From the IMG/VR virus record IMGVR_UViG_3300017751_000263, positions 1 through 22,636 of that record: 22,636 nucleotides of DNA; one strand, 5' to 3'. How positions within the stretch are numbered: position 1 is the stretch's first letter; every line of letters starts with the position of its first letter. The notes under the pieces are model-generated. The model was given only the letters and a program-made list of their open reading frames with translations, was not told where the DNA came from and searched no databases. The position numbers were made by a program, and so were the translations under genes. Source of the stretch: a virus. This document shows, in pieces, positions 1 through 18,216 of this stretch.

Positions 1-3000
1 ATCTTTTAAGAACATACCCTTACTTTTTGTGTAAGTGTTCCAAGATATAGGGTTCTGCTGTTTATTTACGGCATTTCTAAAATCAGACAACATTTGATTG
101 TAGTCTTGATTAAAGTATTCTGGAAAATGGTTGGCTAAAAGTATATCAGCAGTTTCTTCTGTGCTACCTTTTTTAATTCTAGCCCAAGCGTTAGTAAGCA
201 AGGTCCTTACTTTACTGTTTTCTTTTTTAGCATTATTATTCCAAAATGGAGATGACAATGTATTTTGAAGACCAGCCGCTACTGCTAGTGCCTCGTTTTT
301 AATTTCACCTTGCTGTGCATCAGGAAGTATATTAAAGCCCTGAGAAGCCATTAAAAGCTCCATGTCGGCTAAGTATCTTCTTTTTGCAGAGTCAGAGGTA
401 ATTTCAGTTTCAATATTGTTATCAGCTTTCCACTGTTCAATAGTTACTACACCTACTTTACTTCTAATAAGGTCTCTAAACTTTAGTTTTCTACCTTTGT
501 ACTCAACATCTAATTCATTATAGTTGTCAAGCTTTACTCTTTCAAATACAGGCTGATTAACAATCTCAGTTAAAAGAGCTTGCATTTCAGGCGTGTTTTG
601 ATATAGTGTTTGATAAGTGTGCCAGTTTTCATGGTGAAACACTTCTTGAGTCATTGTAAGCGGATTAATAAACTTAGCCAAACCAATAGCCATACCAATA
701 GCAGGTTTACCTAAATCATCAATAAGGCTTTCATCAAAAAAGATTGCAGTGTTAGGCTCAAGCTCCATTTGTTCATCTGCCCAAACTTCAAGTTGACCAC
801 CATATAATCTTTTACCTAGTCTTTGTCGTGCAGCAGATAAAGTTTCAGACTTAGCTTGTATGTTTTTTACTTTATCCGCACCTCCTGTTACCGAAGCAGT
901 ATCACTTACATCTTCTTTTGAAGTAACGTCTTCATCAACTTCTTTTTCTTGAGTACGATTATCTTCTGACTTTTCAGTTTTTTCTTTTGCCGATTCTGTA
1001 GTTTCTTCATTTACAGACTCTTGCGTAGTAACTGTTTCAGTTACATTACCTGCTGCATCTACAGTCTTGGTAGTAACTGTCTCGCCTTCAGTTTTAGTAA
1101 ATACAAAAGTACCTTCTTCAGCGTTTTTTTGAGCTTCAAAGTCTATACTAAAATCTGCACCTGCTATTTGCTGTGCTTTTTTTACTTTACCTGTAGCTAC
1201 GATTTCATCATAGTAAGGCTTATTTTTAGTGTCAGCTATAAATGCTTGCTCTTCTTCGGTAAGCTCTTCACCTCTAGCCTCTTTATCAACTATTTCATTA
1301 AGCTGTGGCAATACATCACGCTCTACTCGTTCCTGTTCACGACGCATAGTTGCTTGTGCGTAAACATTTTTTATAGCAGACTCATGTACTTGGTTTTCAG
1401 TCCTAGCTGTTTTAGGGTTACCTGCCTCATCTAGTTGTGGATTACCTGCTTCGTCTAGTAATTGTATATCACCAGCTTTTACTTCAGCAATAGCCTCTTC
1501 TACACCTGCAAGCATAGCAGCCTCTTGGTCTTTTTCTAAACCTTGAGCTTTAATCTTTTCTTTTTCAGCCTCTAAGCTTTCAAGCTGTCTGTCAACAATA
1601 TTTTTATTTCTATTTTTTTGACGAGTAGCTAATATTACTCTAGCTTTTTCTTTTTCATTAAGACCTATGCTAGGAGTACTCTCAACAAGAGTCTCCATTT
1701 CTTTGGCTGTTTCTGTAAAGGTAGTATGCTGTTCTTCAGTTATTTTACCTTCTTCTAACAGGTGATTTACTAAATCTACATAGTAATCCCCTTTACCTTC
1801 AAGTACTCGTTTTACAAGTAACTTATCTAGTTGCCTTACTTTTAATGCTTTTAATTCTTGAACAGATTTACCAGAGGTAGCTCTTGTACCTCCACCAGGT
1901 TCTTCACCTAATTGTTTTTCCGTTAAGTCAAATTGCTCGACGTCTTGAAATAAAAACTCTTCATCAAACCCCTTTTCAAGCGTAAACAAACGTTTTCTTT
2001 CTGCAGACACATCTACTGCTGCCTTAACACCAGATACGGCCATAGACGAAGCAAATGCAATCACACGAGTAGGTAAAGCTTCTTGGCTAGTAAAGTAATC
2101 CATATAGGACATAAACTCTTCACCTTTTGCTTCAGCTAAATTACTTTTAGATGACCAGTCTTGATAAACTTCTTGGAACTGCTCAAGCATACCATCTGTA
2201 AGTACAATACCAGATACTTTAGCCATATTACCAATAACTGACTTTATACCTGGTGCTTTTGTAAAGTTTAATGATAAAGCTTTTTGTGTATTTTTAGGAA
2301 GCATAGCTTTTAAAAACTTATTACCTCCTGTAACAAAACCTAACTGAAGACCATCTACAGCCATCCATTTCATATTGTCTACGAATGTATCATGTGCAAC
2401 TACAGATGCTTGCTCTTTAGTAAGACCGTCTCTTAGTGCGTCATTGTATACCTGACCAGCTATTATCGTACCTTCACTTATATTACCCAATGCAGCTCCA
2501 CCCGCAAAAGATGTAGCTCCTTTAGCAAATTTAGAACCTTGGTGCATGTGCTTAACTAAACCAAGCTGTTGCATTTTACGGCCTACGCTAAAGCTTTTGT
2601 TAGCTGCTGACAAGCCACGATACACTGCTTGTGCACCTCTAGCACCTACCATACCAGGTATAAAAAATGATAATGTAAATGGAACTGCTCTAGACGCATG
2701 TGTAAACCAAAAATCTATATCAAACATATCATTGAACGTAACGTTAGATACGTCTGATAGTTCGGCTACAGGGTCTCCTACAGCTTGCAATTCTTTACCT
2801 GCTTTATGAAAAGCATCAGAGAAAAAACTAGATACAGGTTTTGTAGTATCTAGCCCATAAATTTCTTTAGAAAGCTCAGAAGCTACTACATGTGCAGGAG
2901 ACGTTTTAGTAATAAAATCAGTAGCATCACCTAACCCAACAACTAAATCACCAAGACCTGCTACAAAAGAACGAGCACCTTTTTCAACAAGGTTCATGTC

Positions 3001-3213
3001 GTAATCTATAGATTGCTTGCTTGCTGCTTGTTCTAAGTACTGCTGTTCGGCTAGTTTTTCTTCTTCAGTATAACCAACACCAAAAATGCTAGTTGAGTCT
3101 ATACCTTGTTCTTTAGATAAATCTACCCTTACAGATGGGGTTTCTTGTGACTTTAAAAAACTGTTGTCGTATTTTTTAATGTCATCTTTAGGTGAACCTA
3201 CTCCGTTGCTCAT
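1..3213 (-). CDS. Giant putative ejected virion protein with HExxH motif (3' end outside window)
   Basis: The reading frame is open from the ATG at 3211-3213 to the left edge, 1071 codons without a stop, so the C-terminus lies outside. The start follows the stop of the upstream gene by one base, which fixes it well. Near residues 168-193 is a hydrophobic Phe/Gly-rich stretch, followed by helical Gly/Ala-rich sequence; the middle (about 420-800) is highly charged, Lys/Glu-rich and probably coiled or disordered, with a tandem LDEAGNP repeat (586-600). At residues 861-865 (bases 619-633) it reads HENWH, matching the HExxH zinc-metalloprotease signature, preceded by a hydrophobic segment (IGMAIGLAKF) as is usual for the active-site helix. 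E952 in MELLMASQG is a possible third zinc ligand, which is speculative. Position at the end of the virion operon and large size suit a capsid-packaged protein that is ejected into the host. The ejection role is inferred; I do not recognise the whole family. Confidence 0.85.
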   Translation of the reverse strand, partial: MSNGVGSPKDDIKKYDNSFLKSQETPSVRVDLSKEQGIDSTSIFGVGYTEEEKLAEQQYLEQAASKQSIDYDMNLVEKGARSFVAGLGDLVVGLGDATDFITKTSPAHVVASELSKEIYGLDTTKPVSSFFSDAFHKAGKELQAVGDPVAELSDVSNVTFNDMFDIDFWFTHASRAVPFTLSFFIPGMVGARGAQAVYRGLSAANKSFSVGRKMQQLGLVKHMHQGSKFAKGATSFAGGAALGNISEGTIIAGQVYNDALRDGLTKEQASVVAHDTFVDNMKWMAVDGLQLGFVTGGNKFLKAMLPKNTQKALSLNFTKAPGIKSVIGNMAKVSGIVLTDGMLEQFQEVYQDWSSKSNLAEAKGEEFMSYMDYFTSQEALPTRVIAFASSMAVSGVKAAVDVSAERKRLFTLEKGFDEEFLFQDVEQFDLTEKQLGEEPGGGTRATSGKSVQELKALKVRQLDKLLVKRVLEGKGDYYVDLVNHLLEEGKITEEQHTTFTETAKEMETLVESTPSIGLNEKEKARVILATRQKNRNKNIVDRQLESLEAEKEKIKAQGLEKDQEAAMLAGVEEAIAEVKAGDIQLLDEAGNPQLDEAGNPKTARTENQVHESAIKNVYAQATMRREQERVERDVLPQLNEIVDKEARGEELTEEEQAFIADTKNKPYYDEIVATGKVKKAQQIAGADFSIDFEAQKNAEEGTFVFTKTEGETVTTKTVDAAGNVTETVTTQESVNEETTESAKEKTEKSEDNRTQEKEVDEDVTSKEDVSDTASVTGGADKVKNIQAKSETLSAARQRLGKRLYGGQLEVWADEQMELEPNTAIFFDESLIDDLGKPAIGMAIGLAKFINPLTMTQEVFHHENWHTYQTLYQNTPEMQALLTEIVNQPVFERVKLDNYNELDVEYKGRKLKFRDLIRSKVGVVTIEQWKADNNIETEITSDSAKRRYLADMELLMASQGFNILPDAQQGEIKNEALAVAAGLQNTLSSPFWNNNAKKENSKVRTLLTNAWARIKKGSTEETADILLANHFPEYFNQDYNQMLSDFRNAVNKQQNPISWNTYTKSKGMFLKD

Positions 3214-3214
3214 T

Positions 3215-5011
3215 TTATTTCTGTTGTGTAATTATACTGTTTCGAATAGCGCCAGCGAGTTCTACTAACTCTTTTTCACTAGCTTCTATAACTTCTTGCT
3301 GTACGCCCCTTTCTTGCGCAAGTAAAGATAAGTTTTTAATAAATAACTGTGGGTCGTCAGAAACTATAGCTGAATACAAATCTGGATTAGCGTTAACATT
3401 AAGAATTTCATTCAAGTCTTGTATGTCTGTTTGATAAATTTGTGAGAATGCTAACATAACTGCTTTTGTAGCCAACGAAGGCGAGTTTACACTAAGTCTA
3501 TCAAGTTGGTCTTCTATAGCAGAATCATTGTATACAGCAAACTCATACAATCTTTGTGGACTAGATTTTCTGTCTATATCTACAAAGTTAACGTTTACTT
3601 TACCAGTGTCTTGATAACGGTTATCATCATTTATTTGTTTGTTGTAAGATGCGTTATCATACTTGATTAAGTCATTAACTTTATTTGCTTTTAGAGGTGA
3701 CTTAAAGTCTAGCTCTTTGTATATGTAGTCATCAGAACCTAAACCAAACAAACCACCTTCAGCAGTTAATGCCATTACATAAACAGGCTCTACTTGACCT
3801 TGATAGCCAGCATCTACCTCTTCTTTAGTAAGTATTTTAGGGTTATCTCCTACAGTTTTGTAAGACAAGGTAGTACCTAGTATATTCCAAGAATCACCTT
3901 CTAGTTCAATACCATCTTCCATTTGGAATCCATCTGCTCCAAACCAAGAACCACTAGAGTTGTTTACTTTCTTACCATCTAAGTATACATCATCATCTGC
4001 ATACGCTTTTCCTGGTATAAAGCTATTATCTATAAATGTATTTACAAGCTCCACACTATAGTCCTCAAACGCTAGCTTACCATATATAGGAGCTTCTATT
4101 TGAGCGTCAGTTTGTTGCGCAAGTTGCTGTAGCCTTGTAGTACCATCTTTAAACTTAGGATTTCTATTTTCATTATCTATAATTTTAGTACCATCTATAG
4201 GTGCAAAATTAGAATCGAATACCTCTGATATAGTATTAGCAAGTCTAGGTTTATCGCTCTTAGTAAATGCATTAGGACCTTCTAGTCCACCAACATAACT
4301 AGCTGCGTAGTTTCTTATTTTATTATAGTCAACATCAAAAGCTGTGTCTACTGGTAAATTATTTTCGTTAGCATAATTTAATCTAAAAGCAAATTCATTA
4401 TCATCATGCGCCAATATAACATCTACTCTCGCTGTGCCTGGAGGCGCATTTTTAAACGCAGCTGCATCAGGGTTCTTGTGTTGCATTTTAGCAGCTAGAG
4501 GCATTCTAAACGTATCTACTTGACCTGTTTGATATAACTGTGCTAACTTATGTGTAGAATTAAATACTTTATCCATTCCTTGACCTTCTTCGATGGCCTC
4601 AAAGTATTTAGCAAACTCACTAGTATTTTTTTGTAGCTCTACTGCTTCAGTACCACCTAACACAGACTGTTTAAATCTTTCAATCTCAGCTTGGCCGCCT
4701 TCGTACCAGAATCTAGTTATATCACCACCATACTTAGTAGCAATAACATTCTTAAATTCTTCCGCTGCTTCAGCGTATATTTCTGACATACGAGCTTTAT
4801 CTTTACTTCTGTACGCAAAAGTTTTAGCTTGCTGTTGTATATTATCTATAGACGCCATAGTATTAGTATGAGCTGCATTTTGCTTTTCATACTCATAGTC
4901 TTGATACTTTTGCTCTGCAAGTTCTTGCTGCATATTGTATTTTACCCGTTGCCTAAAAGCTGGGGATTTACTCAGCATATTATTTGCTGCATTTACTTTA
5001 TCAAAATTCAT
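3215..5011 (-). CDS. Unrecognised large virion protein (598 aa), probable cargo/ejection protein
   Basis: No family is recognised. The first 110 or so residues are strongly helical and rich in Gln, Lys and Ala (NMQQELAEQKYQDYEYEKQ), looking like a coiled coil. The middle is mixed and acidic, with a Gly/Ser/Asp-rich patch near residues 350-400, and the last 80 residues return to predicted helix (EVIEASEKELVELAGAIRN). There is no signal peptide or clear membrane segment. The ATG overlaps the upstream stop as TAATG, and the next gene begins one base after this stop, so it is very probably translated with its neighbours. Sitting between a lysozyme-domain protein and the giant HExxH protein, it is probably another internal virion or ejected protein; this rests on position only. 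A structural tail component is the main alternative. Confidence 0.85.
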   Translation of the reverse strand: MNFDKVNAANNMLSKSPAFRQRVKYNMQQELAEQKYQDYEYEKQNAAHTNTMASIDNIQQQAKTFAYRSKDKARMSEIYAEAAEEFKNVIATKYGGDITRFWYEGGQAEIERFKQSVLGGTEAVELQKNTSEFAKYFEAIEEGQGMDKVFNSTHKLAQLYQTGQVDTFRMPLAAKMQHKNPDAAAFKNAPPGTARVDVILAHDDNEFAFRLNYANENNLPVDTAFDVDYNKIRNYAASYVGGLEGPNAFTKSDKPRLANTISEVFDSNFAPIDGTKIIDNENRNPKFKDGTTRLQQLAQQTDAQIEAPIYGKLAFEDYSVELVNTFIDNSFIPGKAYADDDVYLDGKKVNNSSGSWFGADGFQMEDGIELEGDSWNILGTTLSYKTVGDNPKILTKEEVDAGYQGQVEPVYVMALTAEGGLFGLGSDDYIYKELDFKSPLKANKVNDLIKYDNASYNKQINDDNRYQDTGKVNVNFVDIDRKSSPQRLYEFAVYNDSAIEDQLDRLSVNSPSLATKAVMLAFSQIYQTDIQDLNEILNVNANPDLYSAIVSDDPQLFIKNLSLLAQERGVQQEVIEASEKELVELAGAIRNSIITQQK

Positions 5012-7008
5012 TAGTCTATCTTTTCGTCTATGTTAGTGTAAACGTTTTCTGTAGCTACTGGGTCTGCCGTAACGCCTGGTGTTTGAGCTGCTTCTCTAAA
5101 AGAACGCATATCCATGTAGTTTCTAGAATACTCTGTTGCTTCTTTAAATAAATTCAAACCTATGTTAGCTTGTCTATTTTTTCTATTAGACTCTAATTTT
5201 GCAGACAATTCTGCGTGGTTCATATCAGCAGATAACTTCTGTTGAGAATAAGCTCCAGCAGTTTTCGCATATAAATCTAAGTTTTTTTGACGAATTTCTG
5301 CGTTTTTTCCAGCTAAATCTACTAAAGCATTAACTCTACTAGCATCTGCAATACCAGCATTAGACAAAGCTAAACCTCGTTGACCGCCTGACATTGCCAT
5401 TACGTTTTTCATTGCTCCAGAGTAAGCTGCTGCTATATCTTTTAACGCTGCTTGCTTTTGAGCATACGGCATTCCCTGGTCAGAAGCTTGTCTAGTTTTT
5501 AATAGTGCCTCTTTAAATAGTGGTGATACATGCGATTTAGTTACCTCGTCACGCTCAGTGGCTTCAAATATATTTTTGATACCTGCACCAGCAGATAGCG
5601 CAAAGAATGCTTTATCGACGTTGTCAGCAAGCCCCTTCAAAACGTTTAAAGTTTTTTCACCTATAACAGGTAGCTTATCTTTAATTTTTTGTTTTGTAAG
5701 GTCAAGTTTATCTTTTCTAGTACCGCCAGTTACATCACCAAAAGCATCAGACATCATTGCGTTTTCTGGTTGCAAGAAGTCTACAAAATCTTTTTGTGCA
5801 TCTATTTTATCTTGCTCTTCAGTTATAGCGGTTCTAAGCTCTGGAGCTGAATCACCTACTGGGTCAAGTGTAGGAATACTACTTAAATCTTTATTTTTTT
5901 CTGCTTGAAACGCTATCTCTCTGTCTGTAAGAGTAGGAGTTGTTGTTGCAGTAGTAGTTGTATCTACTGGTTTAGAGTATTTATCTATAAAGTCTACTAT
6001 GTTTTGAGTAGATATTTTTTGTGCTTCTTTATATTTAGGAGACTTTGTTTTATCAGCAGGGGGCGTATACCCCATAATAGACCCTAAAAATCCCGTTTGT
6101 TGAGTCGCAGACTGATTAGGAGGGTTTTCGTATCTATATATTAAAGTATCTGCTTCTTTTCTAGCCTCTATAGATGCGTTTTCGTCATCTCTTATTTTAT
6201 AAACTTCCTCTATAGAATAAGCGTCACGATTTTGCTGCACCTCTTGTTCTAATTCAGAAACTTTTGCATTAAACAACTCGCTAGCGGCATTAAAATCTTT
6301 TGGGTCTAGTGCTTTAGTTTTTTGGTATGCTAAATCTTTAAGAGCACGTTTTTCTTCTACACTTTTGTTAGTGTTATTTATTTTAGTTTTTAAGCCTTCA
6401 AATACTTCTTTTTCAGTAGTAGTAAACCCTGAAAAATCATATGCGTCTACAAACTTATTTCCCCCACCAAAAGCAGTTATAGATGCTTTTGTAATTAATT
6501 TTTCACCATCAGCAAGCCAGCCTGGGTTTTGTTTAAGTACGGTAGCTTGTTTTGCTAGTGGCACTGGAGTAGAAGGGTCTGTTCCTACTAATTCTGGGTA
6601 TGCTATAGCAACATATAGCTCACCTGGTTCGCCACCTTTTTTCTTAAATTGATTTTCTAAGTATTCCTCTACAAGATTAAGTTGACGCAACACTGGCATT
6701 CTTTCTATCTCATCAATCTCATACTTAGTACCACCAATAGTTTTATACGTTTCACTCTGTTGTTTTTGTCTATTAAAGTCAGGATAAAACTGTATAAGAC
6801 CAGCAGCTTTGCCGTCTCCTAAGTTTCTTTGAGCAGCACTAAAACTACCTGCTGTCTCTTTTTCCATTGCTGCTAATATTTCATCAACACTTACGCCTAA
6901 GTTTTTAGCAATAGATTTAATTTTATTATTTACCCCAGGTTGAGCTAAAAAATCTTTCTTATTTTGCGCTATTCGAGCTGCGCTTGGCATTGCTTTTACT
7001 GGTATCAT
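5011..7008 (-). CDS. Virion-associated peptidoglycan hydrolase, lysozyme-like N-terminal domain (665 aa)
   Basis: Residues 25-135 look like the phage-type lysozyme/soluble lytic transglycosylase domain: IKSIAKNLGVSVDEILAAM leads to KETAGSF, in which E51 is the expected catalytic glutamate, then a conserved N62, then AAGLIQF (68-74), the substrate-cleft motif, then a helix resembling eQL..V..YL. Such domains cleave the glycan chain of peptidoglycan, here probably to let the tail or ejected proteins cross the cell wall. The remaining 500 residues are mostly helical, with a Thr-rich linker around 350-360 (TTTTATTTPTLT) and a long Ala/Gln-rich helical C-terminus (about 530-645). No signal peptide is present, which argues against a secreted lysis enzyme. 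The ATG overlaps the upstream stop (TAATG), and the gene after it starts the same way. The enzyme domain is well supported; its delivery from the virion, as with T7 gp16, is inferred. Confidence 0.9.
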   Translation of the reverse strand: MIPVKAMPSAARIAQNKKDFLAQPGVNNKIKSIAKNLGVSVDEILAAMEKETAGSFSAAQRNLGDGKAAGLIQFYPDFNRQKQQSETYKTIGGTKYEIDEIERMPVLRQLNLVEEYLENQFKKKGGEPGELYVAIAYPELVGTDPSTPVPLAKQATVLKQNPGWLADGEKLITKASITAFGGGNKFVDAYDFSGFTTTEKEVFEGLKTKINNTNKSVEEKRALKDLAYQKTKALDPKDFNAASELFNAKVSELEQEVQQNRDAYSIEEVYKIRDDENASIEARKEADTLIYRYENPPNQSATQQTGFLGSIMGYTPPADKTKSPKYKEAQKISTQNIVDFIDKYSKPVDTTTTATTTPTLTDREIAFQAEKNKDLSSIPTLDPVGDSAPELRTAITEEQDKIDAQKDFVDFLQPENAMMSDAFGDVTGGTRKDKLDLTKQKIKDKLPVIGEKTLNVLKGLADNVDKAFFALSAGAGIKNIFEATERDEVTKSHVSPLFKEALLKTRQASDQGMPYAQKQAALKDIAAAYSGAMKNVMAMSGGQRGLALSNAGIADASRVNALVDLAGKNAEIRQKNLDLYAKTAGAYSQQKLSADMNHAELSAKLESNRKNRQANIGLNLFKEATEYSRNYMDMRSFREAAQTPGVTADPVATENVYTNIDEKID

Positions 7009-8342
7009 TATGCAATTCTATTTATTTTACCACCTGGATGTGTTGCATCTCCGTAGTTGTTAACTGAATTTAATGCTGAAAGTATCTGTAGAGGTGTACC
7101 TTGTACAGCGTATGTGTTTTTAGATTCAGGTGAGTTTTTAGTAATCTTTGCGTTTGTTACGTATTCTTCGCCTTCAATCTCTGCTACGGGTTTACCGTTT
7201 TTAGTAGCCATTACGCCACCTTCTTCATGAGATGGACCTTTTACTACACCATCAAAAGTACCACCGTATTTTAAGTACGATATACTTCCTTGAAGACTAT
7301 CTAGGTAGGATTGCATATTAGAGACTTGTTCTTTTTTATCTTCCATTTTTTGACCTCTAATTAAACCTAAATCACGTTTTTCAAACAAATTAGAACGTTT
7401 TCCTAAGTACTCTTTTTTGTCTTCTTCTGCTTTAGCGTACTCTGCATCTATACGTTTCTGTATTTTTCTTTTGTATTTTTTACCTCTAATACCCCCAAGA
7501 AGTCTTCCAAAAAACTTACCTACTTTTTGCCCTACACCTGGCATACCAAAATATGCTCCAACAGCTGTACCTGCAGTACCTCCTATAGCTTCACCTTTTT
7601 CTTTTCTAGCCTGTTTAGCTAAATTTGTAATAGTCTTTTCATCTACTTCATATCTATCAGCTATAACTTCATGCTCTAAACTGTGCATGTCTGAGTCACT
7701 AGTAGTCATTTTATTAATATCAAAACCTGTTTCTGTGTAATAGTCTGTATTTTCTACATCTTTAAACGCAGCCTTATTAAGTTGTGAGTATTCCATATAA
7801 TCACTTGCAACATCAACAGCAGCCGAACCAATACCAGCCCCTTCTGATTTTACAAATTTACCTACACCAGTTTCCGCAAACTTATCTGCAAGCCCACCTA
7901 AATTGTATTTTTTAATATTACTTTTCATAAGACCACCTGCTTTCATTTCTGGTACTGCAGGCTTTGCAACCTTAGTAGTAGAAGATTCAAAAGTTGGTGG
8001 GTAAAAATTAAAGTAATCTTTTTGAAAGCGTTCTCTGTGAGCTTCGTCTATTAAATTAAATTCAGCTCTGTCTTGATTAGACATTCCATATGGGTCAAAA
8101 TAAGTACCTAAGTTATGACGCTCTCTATACTTTTCATTAGCAGCTACCTGTTTAGGTGTACCAAAAGTATCAGTGTAAAATCTTTTTAAGTCTTTAATAC
8201 TATTTAAGCTAGCCGTATCTATATAACTACCTACCTCAAGGTTTGCTTTTGAAAAATCAAGCCTAGTAGGTGTTTGCTCCTTTTCATTATAATAAGGAGT
8301 TTTAGGATATATAGGGTTATCGTATTTATCTCGTCTTGGCAT
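7008..8342 (-). CDS. Virion protein with glycine-rich hydrophobic segment and GPSHEEGG/GEEYV module (444 aa)
   Basis: Three parts can be seen. Residues 1-130 are polar and Tyr/Lys/Asp-rich. Residues 135-150 read AGGLMKSNIKKYNLGG, and 250-286 form a small-residue-rich hydrophobic stretch (AIGGTAGTAVGAYFGMPGV) flanked by basic clusters, resembling a glycine-zipper membrane-active segment. After a charged helix (287-350), residues 358-402 carry KYGGTFDG, then GPSHEEGGV, then AEIEGEEYVTNAKITK. Modules of this type (GPSH..GG followed by E.E.GE.V) recur, to my knowledge, in large virion proteins of Bacteroidota phages, and the last part resembles the GE[FY]Vi-nakaTk motif of other phage internal proteins; their function is unknown. 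Both ends overlap neighbouring genes as TAATG. A role in membrane passage or DNA ejection is inference. Gene reality is certain. Confidence 0.88.
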   Translation of the reverse strand: MPRRDKYDNPIYPKTPYYNEKEQTPTRLDFSKANLEVGSYIDTASLNSIKDLKRFYTDTFGTPKQVAANEKYRERHNLGTYFDPYGMSNQDRAEFNLIDEAHRERFQKDYFNFYPPTFESSTTKVAKPAVPEMKAGGLMKSNIKKYNLGGLADKFAETGVGKFVKSEGAGIGSAAVDVASDYMEYSQLNKAAFKDVENTDYYTETGFDINKMTTSDSDMHSLEHEVIADRYEVDEKTITNLAKQARKEKGEAIGGTAGTAVGAYFGMPGVGQKVGKFFGRLLGGIRGKKYKRKIQKRIDAEYAKAEEDKKEYLGKRSNLFEKRDLGLIRGQKMEDKKEQVSNMQSYLDSLQGSISYLKYGGTFDGVVKGPSHEEGGVMATKNGKPVAEIEGEEYVTNAKITKNSPESKNTYAVQGTPLQILSALNSVNNYGDATHPGGKINRIA

Positions 8343-11300
8343 TATATTATTGTTTTTCTATAGTGTGTCGTAACTGACCGTAAATTAAAATCTAAAAAAG
8401 AACTACCTGAAATTACTTGCTCTAGTTTTATACTTAAATGATTTCCTTTAAGTCTTTTTGTAACAAAAGTCGGAACTATTTGTTTGTTAATAACTACTTT
8501 GTCAATATCAGTTGCAGATAAGTCTAAAACTTCTTCAACGTCTATATCTGTACTATAAGCAAATTTAGTAAAAATTCCGCTAGCAGGATTTTCTTTTGTA
8601 TATACACTAATCTTATCATATGTTTTTAAAGAGTTAGGTTCTTCATTATTTATGATTTGCACATAAGGATTAGAGCCATTAGAACCATAAAAATTATTTA
8701 CAGAAGAACCTTTACCGTTAATGTATATTTTTTTTCTACCATCATCTACAAAAGTGTCTTGCATACCAACAGAATAATTATATCCTTCGTGGCTAATATT
8801 TACAAAACTTACATAACTTCTTTTGCTAGTAAATATTTCTAATTTTTCATTATATGATAAGTTTAAATTTTGAACCGCAGAACCATCATAATAAGATACA
8901 CTAAAGTTTATTTCATTTAAGAAATTATCATACATAATATCTATACCTCCAGCTGTAGAACCACTAGTAATTAATGAGCTATCATTTATACTTAAGTTCT
9001 TTATAGGGCTTAAAGGTTTAGTGCAATTTAAAATTTCAGATAAATTAATAACTGTTTTTGAGTTAGAAATTGTAATAGCACATATACTAGCATTTAATGC
9101 ATCTACCCAGTAGATACCTTTATCAGTACTAATAGCGTTATGAATGTGCTGGCTACCATGCTCTGTACTTAGATAATCATTTCTTTCTACAACGTTTCCT
9201 GTACCTACCGCAGATTGTATAGCAATAGCGGAGCCATCTTGTGATTGTATTAAAGCTCTAGTGTTTATAGATAAAACTGAAGTAGCTTTATCCTGTAGAC
9301 AATAAACAGTATCTTTTAGTTTAGATAAATTTTTAATAGGACCATAATTTCTGTCTACTTCAAAAGTTTCATTAGAATCAAAATTAGAAAAAGCATCGTT
9401 AGTTGCACCAGCTAATTTTATATTGGAAGCAGCTATAACATTACTTAAATCAGTTACATTAGGTATGTTAAAGTTTTTAGCTGGAAATGACTTAGTACTG
9501 TTTGTTGCTGAGTAAGAACTATCATAACTATAATCGTCTTCAAATTCTAACTTTGGCGTATTAGCGCCAGTAAATGTACCGCTTCGTAAATCTAAATTTA
9601 TACTAGACTCTACAGGGAACACTAACGCTTGAACTGTAAGCTTGTCTGTATCTGCTGCTACCGTTTCTTCATGATACTTACTTAAGGTAAACATGTTTAC
9701 ATATGTGTCACCACCAAAAACATGAAAGTCATATATATTTTTAGCTTTAGTAACTTCTTGATAAGAACCTGTAGAAATCCACCTTGTATTTAAAAAAGCT
9801 GATTCTGAATTACCGCCATACTGACCAGAGTTATTATCAAATTGTCTAATAATTTTTACATAGGACTTAGATGGAAGGAAATTACTTTTGTCAATTTTTT
9901 TTGTAGAAAAAGCATCACTAGAGGATGAGTAAATGTTACCATCTAAAGCAAAATCAAACTTATCATTCTCACCTAAACTTAATAATAAAGTTTTATTACC
10001 ATTTTGTATAAAACCACCATTATTTCTAACTAAATTGCTTTCTAGATTAATTGTTAGGTACTTGTATTTTGCGTCGTCTGTTGATTTTTCATAAACTACT
10101 GCTGAGTTTTGAAAAGAAACACTAGTTGATATTAAACTACTATCTACTATTTCACCCGCTTCTACAGTTTTTCCAAATGTTATAGGTTTTCTGTTTACTT
10201 GTGTACTTGCAGTGTAGTCTTGTTTTACTAAACCTTCACTAAGTTTATGATTTGTGGCATCGTTACAATGATACTTAGACACCATAGAGTTGTCTACAAG
10301 AAATGGTAGGCTCGGTGCTACAGTGTATGATATTTTAGGGGTTATACCATACAACACATAGCTAGTGTTTACTTGTGTGCTAGCGCTATCATTAGCCCAA
10401 TATATTCTATCGGTATTTGTAGCGTTACTATCATAAAGTTGATTATAATCATTAGGTCTAAGTACTCTATCACACTGAAGGTGATTACATATTTTCAACT
10501 CATCAGTACCACTGGCAGTGTAATTAAGCCTGTCAAATATTACTTCAGGAGAATCTACAGTATATACTGGAGCTAACCCCGCATTTCCTTGCGTATAGTT
10601 ACTAGTAGTGCTAGAAGGGTTAGGAGAAAAAACAGCAATCTTGTCAAGGCCTAATTTATTCTGCATAGTAAGATTATCAGAATGGTCTGCATACTGTAAG
10701 GTGGTATTTAAAAGCCCAGCTGTTACTACTCTTCTATCAGAGTCATTTCTTTCAGCTCTTACTATATCAAAACCTGACACTTTTTCTCTAGTACTAGGTG
10801 ATAATATTACTTCAACCCTTAAATGTAATATGTATCCATTACCTGCTTCGTCTTTTAAAATATATTTGTTCGGATAACCACTTGAGCCTCCGCCATGCAC
10901 TATATTTGTTGCACTACTATTAAAATGCCTATAGTCATCTTCTATAGATGGCATTCTTAAATCACCAATTGTGTAAGTAAATGTTGGGTTTCCTGTACGG
11001 TCATAAAATTGAATACCAAATCTATAAACTTCATCACGCATGTAACCTACATATTGCTCTGCAAAAATCGGGCTTTTATAATTATTATACTCATTTCCTT
11101 TTTCACTTTTAGGAAAAGACCCATAATAAGGCACGCCAGCTTTATTTCTATCAGTACCCCCTTGTTCTGAATATCTTAAAAGACTTATTTCGTCTAAATC
11201 AAAAGGTTTCAGTCTGTAACTAACCCTTACAGAGTCGCTACCTTCTATATCATTATATCTGTAAGCATAGCCGTTAAAAAAACCATTACTTTCAGCTCCT

Positions 11301-13162
11301 AATACTGGTTGATGAGTGTTTGCACCCCCATAAGTAAATCTATAAGCCCCTTTATCGGAACTGTCAGGAACATCTTGAGCATGAACAATAGGGTGTCTAT
11401 ACAAGTCTGGGTTATATAAACTTGGGTTTACGTAACCCGTATATGTAACATAATCACCGCTACCTATAGTAGCGTCATTCCAACTTTCACTTGTTATAGA
11501 ATCAGTTGTCTTACCCATATAGAATTCGTGGTCATAAGACTTTACTTTAAATATCTCTGGACTAGAAAATAAATTTTCACTTTGACTTTTCAAGTTACCT
11601 GCAAAAAGCCTGTTATCTTTAATACACAATGTTTGTGCTATATCCCAAACATTATCCCTACTTAGTATTTCTTCTGCAGTCACCACTGTAGCTGGCTCAC
11701 TACCTGTGTGGACAATAGTCATAGAGCCTGACTCAGTAATGCTTTCAGTTTTTATACTATAAAACACAGCACTACCTTGATTGTCTAGGTAGTGTATACC
11801 TATCAACTCTATTTCATCAAAATTTGTATCAATCCCAGATAGAGAAAAAACTACATTTTTATTTGAATTATCTGCTATATTACCTCCTACTACAGTATTA
11901 ATTAGCCCACCATAATTGGTTTTAGCTAAAGGTATTGGGTTTGTTATAGGGGAAGTAGATGATTTACCACCTGAAGATGTCGTCAACCTATAGCAATAAG
12001 ACCAAGAACCGCAATTTATACTACCACCAACATTTACCGATTCTACAGTTAAAATTGGCAGTGTATTTCTAGGAAATAAATTAAAATCATCTGTTTCATT
12101 ATACAATGAAATGTCGTATAAAGAAGATTCTAAATTAAAAGTTCTTACGGGGTTTACACCATCCGTCCAATACAGTCTTTTAAAGCTTTCGTTTTCTTCA
12201 ATTTTTACTATAAATAATTTAGTAGTATTTGAAGCAATACCTATATTACCGTGTATAACTGGTACTATTTCTGTTATTGCACCAGACGAATCTGTAATTA
12301 ATTTAACTATAGCTTGCTCTGTAGAGCTTACATAGCAAATAGCAGATATAAACCCTGTAAAAGAAGAAAATCCTAAAGGTTGTAATGCTCTAGTAAAACT
12401 TACACTTGAAAAAGTATCAGAACTATTAGTGTTTGGTGAACAAGAAACTCCAGAGTAACTTCCTTCAGCGGTGTCACCCCAAGTAGTAATAACATCAACA
12501 GCTGCACCATCAAACGGTGTAATGCTATTATCTTTTGGGGTAAAGTATAAATTTAAAGTAGTAGTGGTCGTAGCAGTAACTTTCTGTACTATAGTAATAT
12601 TAAATGCTGCTGTAAATACACTATCTTTTTTAAGTAATTCAGCAGAAAATAATATTGCTTCATCATTAGTGTATATAGGTGTGTCGCCTGATTTAGGTCT
12701 ATCTTGACTACTAAACTCAACAGAAGTTGTATCTAAGCTAGACTCCGTAGTGTCTATTTGTATAAAATCACTACCATTAGAAAATGCAAAGTATGAACCG
12801 TTGGCTTTTTTAAATTTAAATTTTATGGTCCGTAAATAATTACCTGCAGTTGATGTTGGATTACCGCTACCTGTCCATGCAGAACTATTGTTTTCGTAAA
12901 GCCAGCTTTTACCGCTATCATTTGTTGCAGGGCTTAAATAAAATACAGATAAATCTAATGTGTCTGCTAATAGATTACCTTTTAAATTTTGTAAAGATGC
13001 AAAATCAGCATCTTTAGAATCTAAATTTACATTTAAGGCATCTGAATACTGGTCATTACCTATAAGTGAAGGGTCTACGTCAGTATTCAACCCTTTAAAA
13101 AATACGTTAGGTTTTTTACTTCCTCCTAGTTCAGCTAACTGTTCTCTTAATGTTTTTGCCAT
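8342..13162 (-). CDS. Muzzle/tail stabilization-type protein, crAss-like (1606 aa)
   Basis: This is the largest complete gene in the window. Residues 18-63 hold the pattern KGLNTDVDPSLI, then QYSDALNVNLDS, then LQNLKGN, which I associate with the crAss-like stabilization/muzzle family, whose N-terminus typically states that a fixed set of features is declared from an initial list of points. The rest is rich in Ser, Thr, Asn and Tyr with short alternating hydrophobic stretches, typical of a beta-rich tail protein, and it ends in DFNLRSVTTHYRKT. In the crAss-like virion such a protein forms the distal part of the short tail, below the ring proteins. The gene starts three bases after the stop of a tail-tubular-like gene, the expected neighbour, and its stop overlaps the next ATG. 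Family assignment is by pattern only; a receptor-binding or fibre role for part of it is possible. Confidence 0.85.
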   Translation of the reverse strand: MAKTLREQLAELGGSKKPNVFFKGLNTDVDPSLIGNDQYSDALNVNLDSKDADFASLQNLKGNLLADTLDLSVFYLSPATNDSGKSWLYENNSSAWTGSGNPTSTAGNYLRTIKFKFKKANGSYFAFSNGSDFIQIDTTESSLDTTSVEFSSQDRPKSGDTPIYTNDEAILFSAELLKKDSVFTAAFNITIVQKVTATTTTTLNLYFTPKDNSITPFDGAAVDVITTWGDTAEGSYSGVSCSPNTNSSDTFSSVSFTRALQPLGFSSFTGFISAICYVSSTEQAIVKLITDSSGAITEIVPVIHGNIGIASNTTKLFIVKIEENESFKRLYWTDGVNPVRTFNLESSLYDISLYNETDDFNLFPRNTLPILTVESVNVGGSINCGSWSYCYRLTTSSGGKSSTSPITNPIPLAKTNYGGLINTVVGGNIADNSNKNVVFSLSGIDTNFDEIELIGIHYLDNQGSAVFYSIKTESITESGSMTIVHTGSEPATVVTAEEILSRDNVWDIAQTLCIKDNRLFAGNLKSQSENLFSSPEIFKVKSYDHEFYMGKTTDSITSESWNDATIGSGDYVTYTGYVNPSLYNPDLYRHPIVHAQDVPDSSDKGAYRFTYGGANTHQPVLGAESNGFFNGYAYRYNDIEGSDSVRVSYRLKPFDLDEISLLRYSEQGGTDRNKAGVPYYGSFPKSEKGNEYNNYKSPIFAEQYVGYMRDEVYRFGIQFYDRTGNPTFTYTIGDLRMPSIEDDYRHFNSSATNIVHGGGSSGYPNKYILKDEAGNGYILHLRVEVILSPSTREKVSGFDIVRAERNDSDRRVVTAGLLNTTLQYADHSDNLTMQNKLGLDKIAVFSPNPSSTTSNYTQGNAGLAPVYTVDSPEVIFDRLNYTASGTDELKICNHLQCDRVLRPNDYNQLYDSNATNTDRIYWANDSASTQVNTSYVLYGITPKISYTVAPSLPFLVDNSMVSKYHCNDATNHKLSEGLVKQDYTASTQVNRKPITFGKTVEAGEIVDSSLISTSVSFQNSAVVYEKSTDDAKYKYLTINLESNLVRNNGGFIQNGNKTLLLSLGENDKFDFALDGNIYSSSSDAFSTKKIDKSNFLPSKSYVKIIRQFDNNSGQYGGNSESAFLNTRWISTGSYQEVTKAKNIYDFHVFGGDTYVNMFTLSKYHEETVAADTDKLTVQALVFPVESSINLDLRSGTFTGANTPKLEFEDDYSYDSSYSATNSTKSFPAKNFNIPNVTDLSNVIAASNIKLAGATNDAFSNFDSNETFEVDRNYGPIKNLSKLKDTVYCLQDKATSVLSINTRALIQSQDGSAIAIQSAVGTGNVVERNDYLSTEHGSQHIHNAISTDKGIYWVDALNASICAITISNSKTVINLSEILNCTKPLSPIKNLSINDSSLITSGSTAGGIDIMYDNFLNEINFSVSYYDGSAVQNLNLSYNEKLEIFTSKRSYVSFVNISHEGYNYSVGMQDTFVDDGRKKIYINGKGSSVNNFYGSNGSNPYVQIINNEEPNSLKTYDKISVYTKENPASGIFTKFAYSTDIDVEEVLDLSATDIDKVVINKQIVPTFVTKRLKGNHLSIKLEQVISGSSFLDFNLRSVTTHYRKTII

Positions 13163-13165
13163 GTT

Positions 13166-13795
13166 TTAGTATCTAGGTACGTGTGGGACTAAGCTATTCC
13201 AGTATTTAGATATAGCTCTCATTTCGCTTCTGTTAGGCATGTTATCATTACCTCTGGCTTGCGCACAAAGCCTAAACCAATCGCGTTTTAAATCATCGTA
13301 TATATACTTAGGAAGCTTTTGATTGTAATAATCTTTTGCTTTGTATTTATACATTAAGTAAGCAGATACAGCGTCCTCATGATTTGCTTCAATTGTAGGA
13401 AATCCTTCAGCATCTGTATCTATTGCTGTATAAGAAATGTCTATAGATGTGTCACTTACCTCTGGAAATCTAACAAACCCATTAGACATGTAATAAGTGT
13501 TGTGGCCTATACCTTGTGTGTTTGTTTCTTTGAAAGGTCTTTGCTCCATTTCATAGTAACGATTATTGGCATTTTTTATATCTATTAACTCTATAAAGTC
13601 TGCTGGCAAAGCGGCTTGCTTGTTATTAATAGTTAAAGAAGCTTCCTTAACTACAAATGTTTTTAATGAACCTATTTTTTTTTCTGCTTCAAAAGCCCAC
13701 TCTACAAAATTATTAAACTCAGACGCAGCATTTTGCACGCCTAAGTTTCTAATAACAGATTGAACAACTTGTTTAACACTTATCCTGGGTTGCAT
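13166..13795 (-). CDS. Tail-tubular/ring-type connector protein (209 aa), R1-like candidate
   Basis: The protein starts with a helical section (VKQVVQSVIRNLGV, then FNNFVEWAFEAEKKIG), continues with LPADFIELIDI at 63-73, a Tyr-rich beta section, and IEANHEDAVSAYLMYKYKAK at 135-154 leading to a long helix. This helix-beta-helix layout and the LPaDFiel and HedAV.AYlmYK patterns match the P22 gp4/tail-tubular type connectors of crAss-like phages, where the corresponding gene sits directly upstream of the muzzle/stabilization gene, as here. Such a protein would form a dodecameric ring under the portal, linking the head to the tail. The ATG follows the TAG of the IHF-like gene by one base, and the muzzle gene starts three bases after its own stop. 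The function is inferred from layout and position. Confidence 0.85.
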   Translation of the reverse strand: MQPRISVKQVVQSVIRNLGVQNAASEFNNFVEWAFEAEKKIGSLKTFVVKEASLTINNKQAALPADFIELIDIKNANNRYYEMEQRPFKETNTQGIGHNTYYMSNGFVRFPEVSDTSIDISYTAIDTDAEGFPTIEANHEDAVSAYLMYKYKAKDYYNQKLPKYIYDDLKRDWFRLCAQARGNDNMPNRSEMRAISKYWNSLVPHVPRY

Positions 13796-13796
13796 A

Positions 13797-14219
13797 CTAG
13801 TAATCTTTTACTTCGTTAATTAACTTCTTAAATTTATTTAAAGGCAATATTTTATACCTTTTGTAAGTTGTTGGTCGCTCCCACACTAATTTATTATAAT
13901 AATCATCTAAGATAGGAACTTTATACTTTACTAGCTGCCCTTGTTTTTCAGACTCTTGCATGTCTATACGTACATGAAAAGGTCTTTTGTGTTGCTCTTT
14001 TTTAATATACACTTTACCTAAATTATATGGTAGTGTAAATTTTTCTCTTTCTATAGCTACTTGGTTCATTAAGATTCTTAAGAAACAAGTAATTACTTTA
14101 TAATACGTAGAATACGATACTCTTTTATTGTTAATAGTTAGCGTGGACTTAATTGAATTGTACACATCTTTTAGTGCCACGTATTTACTTTTATACTTCC
14201 TTAGATTTAGTTTTTTCAT
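13797..14219 (-). CDS. IHF/HU-like small basic protein in the neck gene cluster (140 aa)
   Basis: The start chosen is the ATG at 14217-14219, giving MKKLNLRKYKSKY and a 29-base overlap with the gene upstream. A longer form from 14279 would overlap by 89 bases and add a Leu/Ile/Gln-rich leader (FYYTICLLTLQTIKQ) that reads as a shadow of the upstream gene. Residues 35-75 follow the core of the IHF/HU fold: a helix (YSTYYKVITCFLRILMNQV), then KFTLPYNLGKVYIKK, comparable to the V.LPGfGtF.v strand turn of HU. A basic Trp/Tyr/Lys-rich tail follows (LVWERPTTYKRYKILPLNKF). crAss-like phages are known to keep an IHF-like gene in exactly this block, where it may be a virion component rather than a DNA-bending regulator. 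It is the only gene in the window ending in TAG. The fold match is distant and needs structure prediction. Confidence 0.78.
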   Translation of the reverse strand: MKKLNLRKYKSKYVALKDVYNSIKSTLTINNKRVSYSTYYKVITCFLRILMNQVAIEREKFTLPYNLGKVYIKKEQHKRPFHVRIDMQESEKQGQLVKYKVPILDDYYNKLVWERPTTYKRYKILPLNKFKKLINEVKDY

Positions 14220-14835
14220 CTGTTTGATTGTTTGGAGTGTCAGCAGACAGATTGTATAATAAAACAATTTCTTTTGCAATTATTTCTTGTGTCAGTATAC
14301 TAATCAACTCGCTAGGTATCGGATACTCTGTTGTGTCATCATCTACGTAGCTACTAACTTGCGTAGGGTTACTAAACACCCCTTTTATTTCTAATGTACC
14401 ACCAGAAGCAGGGGAATCCCCTTCAAATACATATATTCTGTTAGATGTTATGCTTGCATACTTTTTTGTAGTGTTACGCATAAATCTAGACTCTTGTATA
14501 AAATTCCTATCGTGGTCTTGCACAAGAGCGAGTAACTCCATAGAGGCGTCTACACTTGTTGAATCCCTAAAAGCTATACTTCGTATTGCTCTGTTGTTAT
14601 TAAAGCCTACAAAAGGCTTGTATTCGTATCCTGCGCTACTTAAAGAAGTAACATCTAACTGATAACAAGCTTCTGATGTTTTTCTACCATTGTCAGTATA
14701 CTTCATAAGAAGCTCTGCACGCTTTACATGAATCATTTGTTTTACCTGCCTAAGAGATAAATTAGAATCATCTGACCCTACACCGCCTTCTACGATGTTT
14801 TTAATGTTGTACGCTATTTCGTTTAATGTTGCCAT
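14191..14835 (-). CDS. Putative neck/ring connector protein (214 aa)
   Basis: The sequence opens with ATLNEIAYNIKNIVEGG followed by SDDSNLSLRQVKQMIHVKRAEL, two helices with a Gly/Asp loop, a pattern I associate with structural proteins of Bacteroidota phages. The centre is beta-rich, and 171-205 read YPIPSELISILTQEIIAKEI and a polar tail. This helix/beta/helix plan, size and position match the small ring proteins stacked below the portal in crAss-like virions. The gene follows a terminator-like hairpin, and its ATG has an A/T-rich leader (AAATTATATAAG) with no Shine-Dalgarno sequence. Its 3' end overlaps the IHF-like gene by 29 bases. Assignment to a particular ring is not possible from sequence alone. 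Confidence 0.85.
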   Translation of the reverse strand: MATLNEIAYNIKNIVEGGVGSDDSNLSLRQVKQMIHVKRAELLMKYTDNGRKTSEACYQLDVTSLSSAGYEYKPFVGFNNNRAIRSIAFRDSTSVDASMELLALVQDHDRNFIQESRFMRNTTKKYASITSNRIYVFEGDSPASGGTLEIKGVFSNPTQVSSYVDDDTTEYPIPSELISILTQEIIAKEIVLLYNLSADTPNNQTDEKTKSKEV

Positions 14836-16773: not shown

Positions 16774-18216
16774 TTAAATATTAAGACCAGTTGGCTTCAA
16801 AATACCGCAAGATAATGGGTTACGGATAATTACACCAGATTCAGAAAGGATGTGACATTCGAAAGTATCATTACCGTTAGCAGCCATCAAAGAAGATGGG
16901 TCGTTAGGGTTAATCATACCAGGAACGTACTTCTTAACGTAGTTTCTGTTGAATCCTTCAGCACCTTTAGCGATAAGCTCAACGTTAGCTACACCATCTT
17001 GAACTGACATATCCATGAATACCATCAACGCAGATAATTCAGCAGAATCAAATCCACCAACACCTGAAGTTAATTTTGCAATATTCGGGTCATCAAAACA
17101 AGGGTTGTGTACAACTGTTATTTTGTTACCTAATACGTGGTAAGTAGTAAAGTTAACACCAACTGATACATCTTGTCCAGCTTTGTCTACAAATGTAGAG
17201 CCAGCAGAACCAGCATTAGCTAAACTAGTACCAACAAACTGTTTCATAGCCTTTTGGAATTGAACCATACCTGCCATACCAGTGAAACAAACAAATTCGT
17301 TTCCTGTAGGCTGTAATGTATTCAATGAAAGACTTGCTAAAGCGTCAAGTAAAATATCTTCAGTTAAAGCACCAGCATTGTAGTTGAATACGTTTCCTGA
17401 GTCAATTTGTGCGATGATACCATCACCCATAACTGGGAATCCTGAAGTTGCAGAACCAGCATCACCAGGGAAAGTAATATCACCTGAAACTGAAGACTTA
17501 CCAAACCATCTGTTCAATTCAAGCTCGTACATGAACTGGTCAGTCATTTGTTGCTCTTTAGTAAAGTACCATAGTCTGTGACCATTGTGCTCTACCCAAG
17601 TAACATCGTGTAAATCAACACCATTAATCTTACACTTTCTACGAGAAAGAGTTAAGTGATTACGGTGAGTTTCTGGGTAAGCGTATAATTCACCTACTTC
17701 GTCACCAAGAGAACCTTGACCGAATGCAGAACCAATTACACCAAGCTGAGTAGCTGTAGTAAGGTCAGTATCAAAAGCTTGTAAAAGTTTTACAGTTACA
17801 TCTGTTTGACCAGCTGCTCCTGTGTTTTGAGTTCCAACTGCAGTTACAACACCTGTAGTACCTGTAGTATCAATTCTTACTACATCATTTACTGCTAGGT
17901 GACAGTATTCGTCAGCAGCTTCAGCAGAAGCGATTTTGTAAGTTACTACATCACCAGCAGAACGGTTAGTAGCATCAGCTACGTCTAGAATTGCAGGTTT
18001 TTTGTAACGAGACATTACTTTCCATTCGAAAGCGTTTGCTCCAATTACTTTTTCAGAAGCACCAAATCCTAGGCGCTCCAATAAGTACGTCATAGAGTAG
18101 CGAGGGTACAATTCAATGATTTTCTTCGCAATCTCTGGGTACTTTAGCATGTTAGCGACAAGCGAGTTGTCTGCTGTGTTATACGACGGGTCGTATTTTG
18201 CACTATATACCTTCAT
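16774..18216 (-). CDS. Major capsid protein, HK97-fold candidate (480 aa)
   Basis: The size, place between scaffold-like and decoration-like genes, and sequence character indicate the main shell protein. The N-terminus (YPEIAKKIIELYPRYSMTYLLERLGF, helices over about residues 27-52) leads to a Gly/Ala/Thr-rich beta core, a segment containing WYFTKEQQMTDQFMYELEL (about 216-234) resembling the E-loop/spine helix region, and a C-terminus with Gly-rich loops (ANGNDTF, then SCGILKPTGL). This resembles capsid proteins of crAss-like phages. No clear N-terminal delta domain or nearby Ser/His protease is evident in the window, so maturation may not need cleavage, or the protease lies elsewhere. The gene has better-adapted codons (AAC, TTC, GGT more common) than its neighbours and a 40-base leader that is almost all A/T. 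Confidence 0.9.
   Translation of the reverse strand: MKVYSAKYDPSYNTADNSLVANMLKYPEIAKKIIELYPRYSMTYLLERLGFGASEKVIGANAFEWKVMSRYKKPAILDVADATNRSAGDVVTYKIASAEAADEYCHLAVNDVVRIDTTGTTGVVTAVGTQNTGAAGQTDVTVKLLQAFDTDLTTATQLGVIGSAFGQGSLGDEVGELYAYPETHRNHLTLSRRKCKINGVDLHDVTWVEHNGHRLWYFTKEQQMTDQFMYELELNRWFGKSSVSGDITFPGDAGSATSGFPVMGDGIIAQIDSGNVFNYNAGALTEDILLDALASLSLNTLQPTGNEFVCFTGMAGMVQFQKAMKQFVGTSLANAGSAGSTFVDKAGQDVSVGVNFTTYHVLGNKITVVHNPCFDDPNIAKLTSGVGGFDSAELSALMVFMDMSVQDGVANVELIAKGAEGFNRNYVKKYVPGMINPNDPSSLMAANGNDTFECHILSESGVIIRNPLSCGILKPTGLNI

Follow-up and report, generated by a model that had tools for sequence, protein, structure and literature searches.

Few viruses of the human gut are as abundant as crAss-like phages. 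Apart from the polymerase core, their cargo proteins carry no annotation other than RNA polymerase subunit or structural protein. Among injected polyvalent proteins, a zincin-like peptidase is the commonest domain (Iyer et al. 2017, PMC5512222). N4-like virion polymerases regularly carry one as a fusion partner, and both HExxxH versions and insertions separating the two catalytic helices are described (PMC5512222). Encapsidation of the N4 polymerase, which enters the particle uncut, depends on the region holding the peptidase domain (PMC5512222); a structure preprint confirmed the HExxH domain C-terminal to the polymerase, and pointed out that HExxH is also present in other enzymes (PMC12633501). 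In Thermus phage P23-45, the tape measure protein gp96 unites membrane domains and a metallopeptidase domain with a virion polymerase of the two-barrel type (PMC10770324). Packaged peptidase-polymerase proteins are therefore a kind already known from N4 and P23-45. In the crAss-like literature that was searched, to which the original polymerase papers (Yutin 2018, Drobysheva 2021) did not belong, so that a prior mention is possible, no cargo peptidase is mentioned, and the search found no paper combining Crassvirales with a zinc metalloprotease.

The window analysed here is the whole 22,636-bp virus contig IMGVR_UViG_3300017751_000263 (Table 1), a Crassvirales-type record by its marker proteins, as the major capsid protein, both tail rings and the portal all match. 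Its minus-strand frame from 3213 to 1 stays open for 1,071 codons and then runs off the end of the record; the C-terminus of this giant protein is missing because the record is the whole contig and the gene is cut at base 1. Within it lies the motif HENWH, whose place, as given in an earlier note, was confirmed by re-reading the frame. We put a probability of roughly 0.85 on HENWH being the active site of a gluzincin-type zinc metallopeptidase domain, N-terminal to a two-barrel virion RNA polymerase in a packaged and ejected cargo protein of about 4,000 residues; for the window's own phage, zinc binding, proteolysis and packaging are what we infer from its relatives and from the motif.

Table 1. 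Features of the 22,636-bp window, with positions on the contig and the evidence or remark for each.
Feature	Position	Strand	Evidence or remark
Giant virion cargo protein, N-terminal 1,071 residues	1..3213	-	ORF to record edge; relatives ~3,900-4,200 aa
Zincin-type metallopeptidase domain (predicted), residues ~800-1000	214..816	-	Sequence conservation
E974 (KNEALA), predicted third zinc ligand	292..294	-	Invariant in 22/22 domains; [NDE]-E-x-x-A in most
Q968	310..312	-	Invariant in 22/22 domains
E952, third ligand proposed earlier, rejected	358..360	-	Not conserved
HENWH, residues 861-865	619..633	-	H861 and H865 predicted zinc ligands, E862 predicted general base
G835	709..711	-	Invariant in 22/22 domains
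Acidic, poorly conserved linker, residues ~690-790	844..1146	-	Precedes the peptidase-type domain
Conserved N-terminal module, residues ~70-440	1894..3006	-	44-75% identity in three relatives
598-aa neighbour	3215..5011	-	Same place in relatives G001 and G002
665-aa cargo-like neighbour	5011..7008	-	Residues ~23-179 match PHROG 4928 and baseplate-hub PHROG 196
444-aa cargo-like protein	7008..8342	-	Weak Pfam and PHROG matches
1,606-aa virion structural protein, muzzle-like	8342..13162	-	Position and PHROG 28748
Crassvirales tail ring protein 1	13166..13795	-	Pfam 1.1e-30
Crassvirales tail ring protein 2	14191..14835	-	Pfam 2.6e-21
Crassvirus major capsid protein	16774..18216	-	Pfam 5.8e-40
Portal protein	19300..21543	-	28-31% identity to Crassvirales portals, best E 2e-84

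The identity of the giant protein as cargo rests on homology and on gene order. The ring genes are followed by the gene of the muzzle-like protein, then by those of the three cargo-like proteins of 444, 665 and 598 residues and finally by the cut giant gene, an order behind ring and muzzle genes that matches that of Crassvirales cargo genes and was counted in favour of a cargo role; in crAss001, the cargo genes gp45, gp46 and gp47 sit behind the structural gene gp44. The 665-residue neighbour, with a match of its N-terminal region to the baseplate hub family PHROG 196 at 2.9e-13, is probably a cell-wall-lysing ejection protein, and the one of 598 residues is likely ejection cargo as well. The 444-residue protein carries a glycine-zipper-like stretch at residues ~248-296.

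Relatives of the giant protein give its probable extent and its modules. The nearer one (L001/G001) has 4,026 residues, with 67% identity over the C-terminal 280 residues and 69% overall, and another (G002) has 3,981 residues and 45% identity. A short stretch of the N-terminal module also matches phi14:2 gp67, and linkers of low conservation flank the peptidase-type domain on both sides. The two-barrel polymerase motif is found as GSDKDGD at 2237-2274 in L001/G001, G002 and L021, and the profile of the giants aligns to crAss001 gp50 and phi14:2 gp66 around the catalytic GSDFD[IV]D. When the polymerase region of six giants was compared by hhalign with 13 crAss-like polymerases, phi14:2 gp66 and crAss001 gp50 among them, the probability reached 97.8 (E 1.1e-12) with the catalytic aspartates in register; tblastn with the same region matched 50 records, of which the named ones are crAss-like phages. 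These alignments in the relatives lead us to read the window protein as the N-terminal quarter of a virion RNA polymerase fusion, whose polymerase part, judging from those relatives, lies outside the window. It is this fusion, overlooked in the earlier note, that gives the motif its meaning.

Two further observations concern the polymerase and C-terminal regions. The polymerases of environmental crAss-like phages (L016, L017, L021, L046-L071) show GSD[KL]DGD in place of the [GA][SA]DFD[IV]D of gut Crassvirales, and the former corresponds to the DGD form found in cellular polymerases. Moreover, few stretches of the giant are as conserved as the C-terminal region at residues ~3600-3900 of the L016 protein, where a profile built from the giants finds the C-terminal end of cr1_1 gp77 (E 2.6e-7 in a set of 19 proteins).

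Taken alone, HENWH is weak evidence, because an HExxH appears in 306 of 20,000 shuffled versions of the protein (1.5%); the number expected from composition is 0.015 per protein of this kind, and HENWH is the sole HExxH among the 15 listed genes and in 45,268 six-frame codons. The chance of such a motif arising in a long protein is the whole case for a fortuitous match, and that reading, to which we give a negligible weight, is removed by the conservation of H861, E862 and H865 in all of the 22 aligned domains. Those domains make 17 clusters at 70% identity, reach down to 12% identity to the window, and share as sole invariant columns G835, H861, E862, H865, Q968 and E974; the same six residues are alone invariant within residues 420-1280 of 14 full-length giants. 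This is the pattern expected of an enzyme active site: the catalytic residues stay constant while the rest of the domain evolves fast. The earlier proposal of a conserved zinc-peptidase-type site in a giant virion protein is in this way sustained, and the three motif residues, for which a homolog alignment had been proposed, proved to be invariant. On the other hand, the third ligand suggested at that time, E952, is ruled out, since most homologs have N, K, D, A, L, R, S or T at this position; the invariant acidic residue is E974, and its equivalents lie 88-151 residues past the second histidine in the 22 domains.

The loci were gathered by three routes, namely via the domain, via the N-terminal module and via the polymerase motif alone, the last being independent of the HExxH motif. 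All of the 23 loci found by the polymerase route, which include same or near-same phages, showed an HExxH or HExxxH located 1,201-1,649 residues upstream of the polymerase motif. The HExxxH form belongs to a subgroup (L048, L061, L062, L064 and L066) with HELTGH, HEYTGH or HEFTGH at the same aligned place. The residues around the motif differ between lineages. The segment preceding it, previously described as hydrophobic and helix-like, reads SSVVLVTT, AGAIFVDP or GMSVFINN in homologs and, as judged from these sequences, looks more like an edge strand ahead of the active-site helix of a zincin.

Structure prediction gave a partial answer. With four sequences AlphaFold returned a poor model (pLDDT 54), and with 22 sequences one of pLDDT 68 and pTM 0.65 with good helices. 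In the latter, HENWH (positions 72-76) falls within one helix, 65-81 of the construct, in a block predicted at moderate confidence (pLDDT 76-82), and E974 is placed on the helix 180-192 at pLDDT about 90-95, with the expected sheet region, residues 826-855, below 50. Foldseek of this model against PDB and BFVD gave no matches and did not find a zincin fold. The model thus has both histidines on one helix, as the proposed structural check asked, and speaks neither for nor against a zincin fold. Families built on sequence did not recognise the domain: across the 22 members no Pfam peptidase family rose above its gathering score (the best was M54 at E 0.06, for a single member), searches of PHROG and of PDB sequences gave no match, annotated phage records returned a chance match at E 5 only, and no relatives were found in the bacterial genomes searched.

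The earlier note had held peptidases to be no standard part of crAss-like ejection proteins, a view contradicted by the same motif type in crAss001 gp47 and in the polymerase fusions of Suoliviridae, cargo proteins of crAss-like phages that are common in the human gut. Mass spectrometry placed gp47 among the proteins of the crAss001 virion (PMC10172136); its HEAFH is at 2157, and the 4,551-residue gp76 of cr1_1 has HEAFH at 2001 and the polymerase motif at 3445. A tblastn search with the gp47 region matched 56 phage records, and HEA[FWY]H is kept in the 16 aligned members from Steigviridae, Suoliviridae and one unclassified phage, some of whose frames require TAG to be read as Gln, and is followed by an ExxA[ED]xF-type motif. 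The Suoliviridae giant fusions L034, L035, L037 and L039-L042 are open only with TAG as an amino acid, as published for the group. In this gp47/gp76 type the HEA[FWY]H...EExxA domain lies upstream of the polymerase, the same place as in the relatives of the window: the distance from HExxH to DxDxD is 1,430-1,529 residues in eight of nine fusions measured (1,772 in cr7), compared with 1,338-1,407 for the nearer relatives of the window. In crAss001, the gp47-like part and the polymerase are encoded by separate genes.

Common descent of the two domain types is likely, with a weak resemblance in sequence. When 135 windows of eight crAss-like cargo proteins were ranked against the profile, the HEAFH windows of cr1_1 gp76 and crAss001 gp47 came first and second, in the same register (P 0.013-0.014). 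The hhalign comparison of the 22-sequence alignment with the gp47-domain alignment gave a weak match (P 0.003), and 4- or 7-sequence profiles gave no significant match to the gp47 domain. In phi14:2 and FpV4 the peptidase-type domain is absent at the corresponding place.

As in N4, the window's relatives would combine HExxH and a downstream glutamate, with HExxxH variants, in a giant packaged polypeptide containing the virion polymerase. The architectures differ: the N4 polymerase is T7-like and single-subunit with the peptidase domain C-terminal to it (2124-2375), whereas the relatives of the window have a two-barrel polymerase and the domain is N-terminal, and N4-type MPTase domains show neither a Pfam nor a sequence match to the window domain. 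With P23-45 gp96 the likeness lies in a two-barrel polymerase with a DFDGD motif plus metallopeptidase and membrane domains within one giant virion protein; gp96 is, however, the tape measure of a long-tailed phage with its polymerase at the N-terminus (motif at 779). The recurrence of such proteins in three distant phage groups (N4, P23-45 and crAss-like) suggests a requirement common to phages that deliver giant polymerases into cells.

In the proposed mechanism, H861, H865 and E974 would bind zinc and E862 would activate water, in a cargo protein packed in the capsid and ejected together with the DNA. Its most probable substrates would be the giant cargo chain itself or other ejection proteins, cut either while the particle is being packed or once the cargo has been ejected, and such a cut could separate the membrane or channel part from the polymerase. 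For this whole statement, peptidase identity together with cutting of the cargo chain or of fellow ejection proteins, we see about an even chance. The poorly conserved linkers flanking the domain and the split of gp47 and polymerase genes in crAss001 were counted in favour of processing; against it were counted the N4 polymerase, fused to such a domain and packaged uncut (PMC5512222), and crAss001 again, where gp47 keeps the peptidase though the polymerase is already a separate gene. This last point, by which cutting at the junction cannot be the sole use, lends some credit to a rival reading in which the peptidase is likewise active but cleaves a host protein (of the envelope, of defence or a transcription factor) met at cargo entry. 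Iyer et al. 2017 (PMC5512222) suggest that injected polyvalent proteins may put their peptidase domains to work within the host, and the lineage-dependent residues flanking the motif would fit such a target; the fixed place upstream of the polymerase in 23/23 loci favours instead a role tied to that chain, and we consider a host substrate possible, with the odds against it. Its broader version, that Crassvirales, the dominant gut phages included, ancestrally inject a zinc protease with the RNA polymerase and that this protease cuts host proteins at the start of infection, is doubtful.

A conserved metal site with another job, be it a structural zinc or some other, non-proteolytic HExxH chemistry, would accommodate the occurrence of HExxH in other enzymes (PMC12633501), the Foldseek result and the HExxxH subgroup. 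The glutamate of HExxH, however, is no metal ligand in a structural site and is invariant in 22/22, as is the downstream glutamate in its ExxA setting 88-151 residues on, and polyvalent-protein peptidases with HExxxH have been described (PMC5512222), which makes this explanation rather improbable. Far less plausible still is a former peptidase that now only helps the polymerase fusion to fold or to be packaged: N4 offers a parallel, with its peptidase-domain region needed for encapsidation of a protein packaged uncut (PMC5512222), but here the catalytic residues are the most conserved of a domain that otherwise falls to 12% identity. Taken jointly, a non-proteolytic or vestigial role is unlikely. 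The preferred reading, that of a gluzincin-type active site in polymerase-fused cargo, amounts to a useful and directly testable prediction in an abundant phage order, with a packaged protease and four residues to test, and its study is possible in the cultured crAss001 through the HEAFH of gp47.

Other HExxH motifs occur elsewhere in crAss-like cargo. Those of phi14:2 gp65 (L025; HEIMH, residue 245) and FpV4 gp32 (L023; HEVIH, residue 4065) have weak SprT-like matches at E 0.004-0.02, and HELVH at residue 517 of cr1_1 gp77 (L027) has a weak match to the lethal-factor family (E 1e-4).
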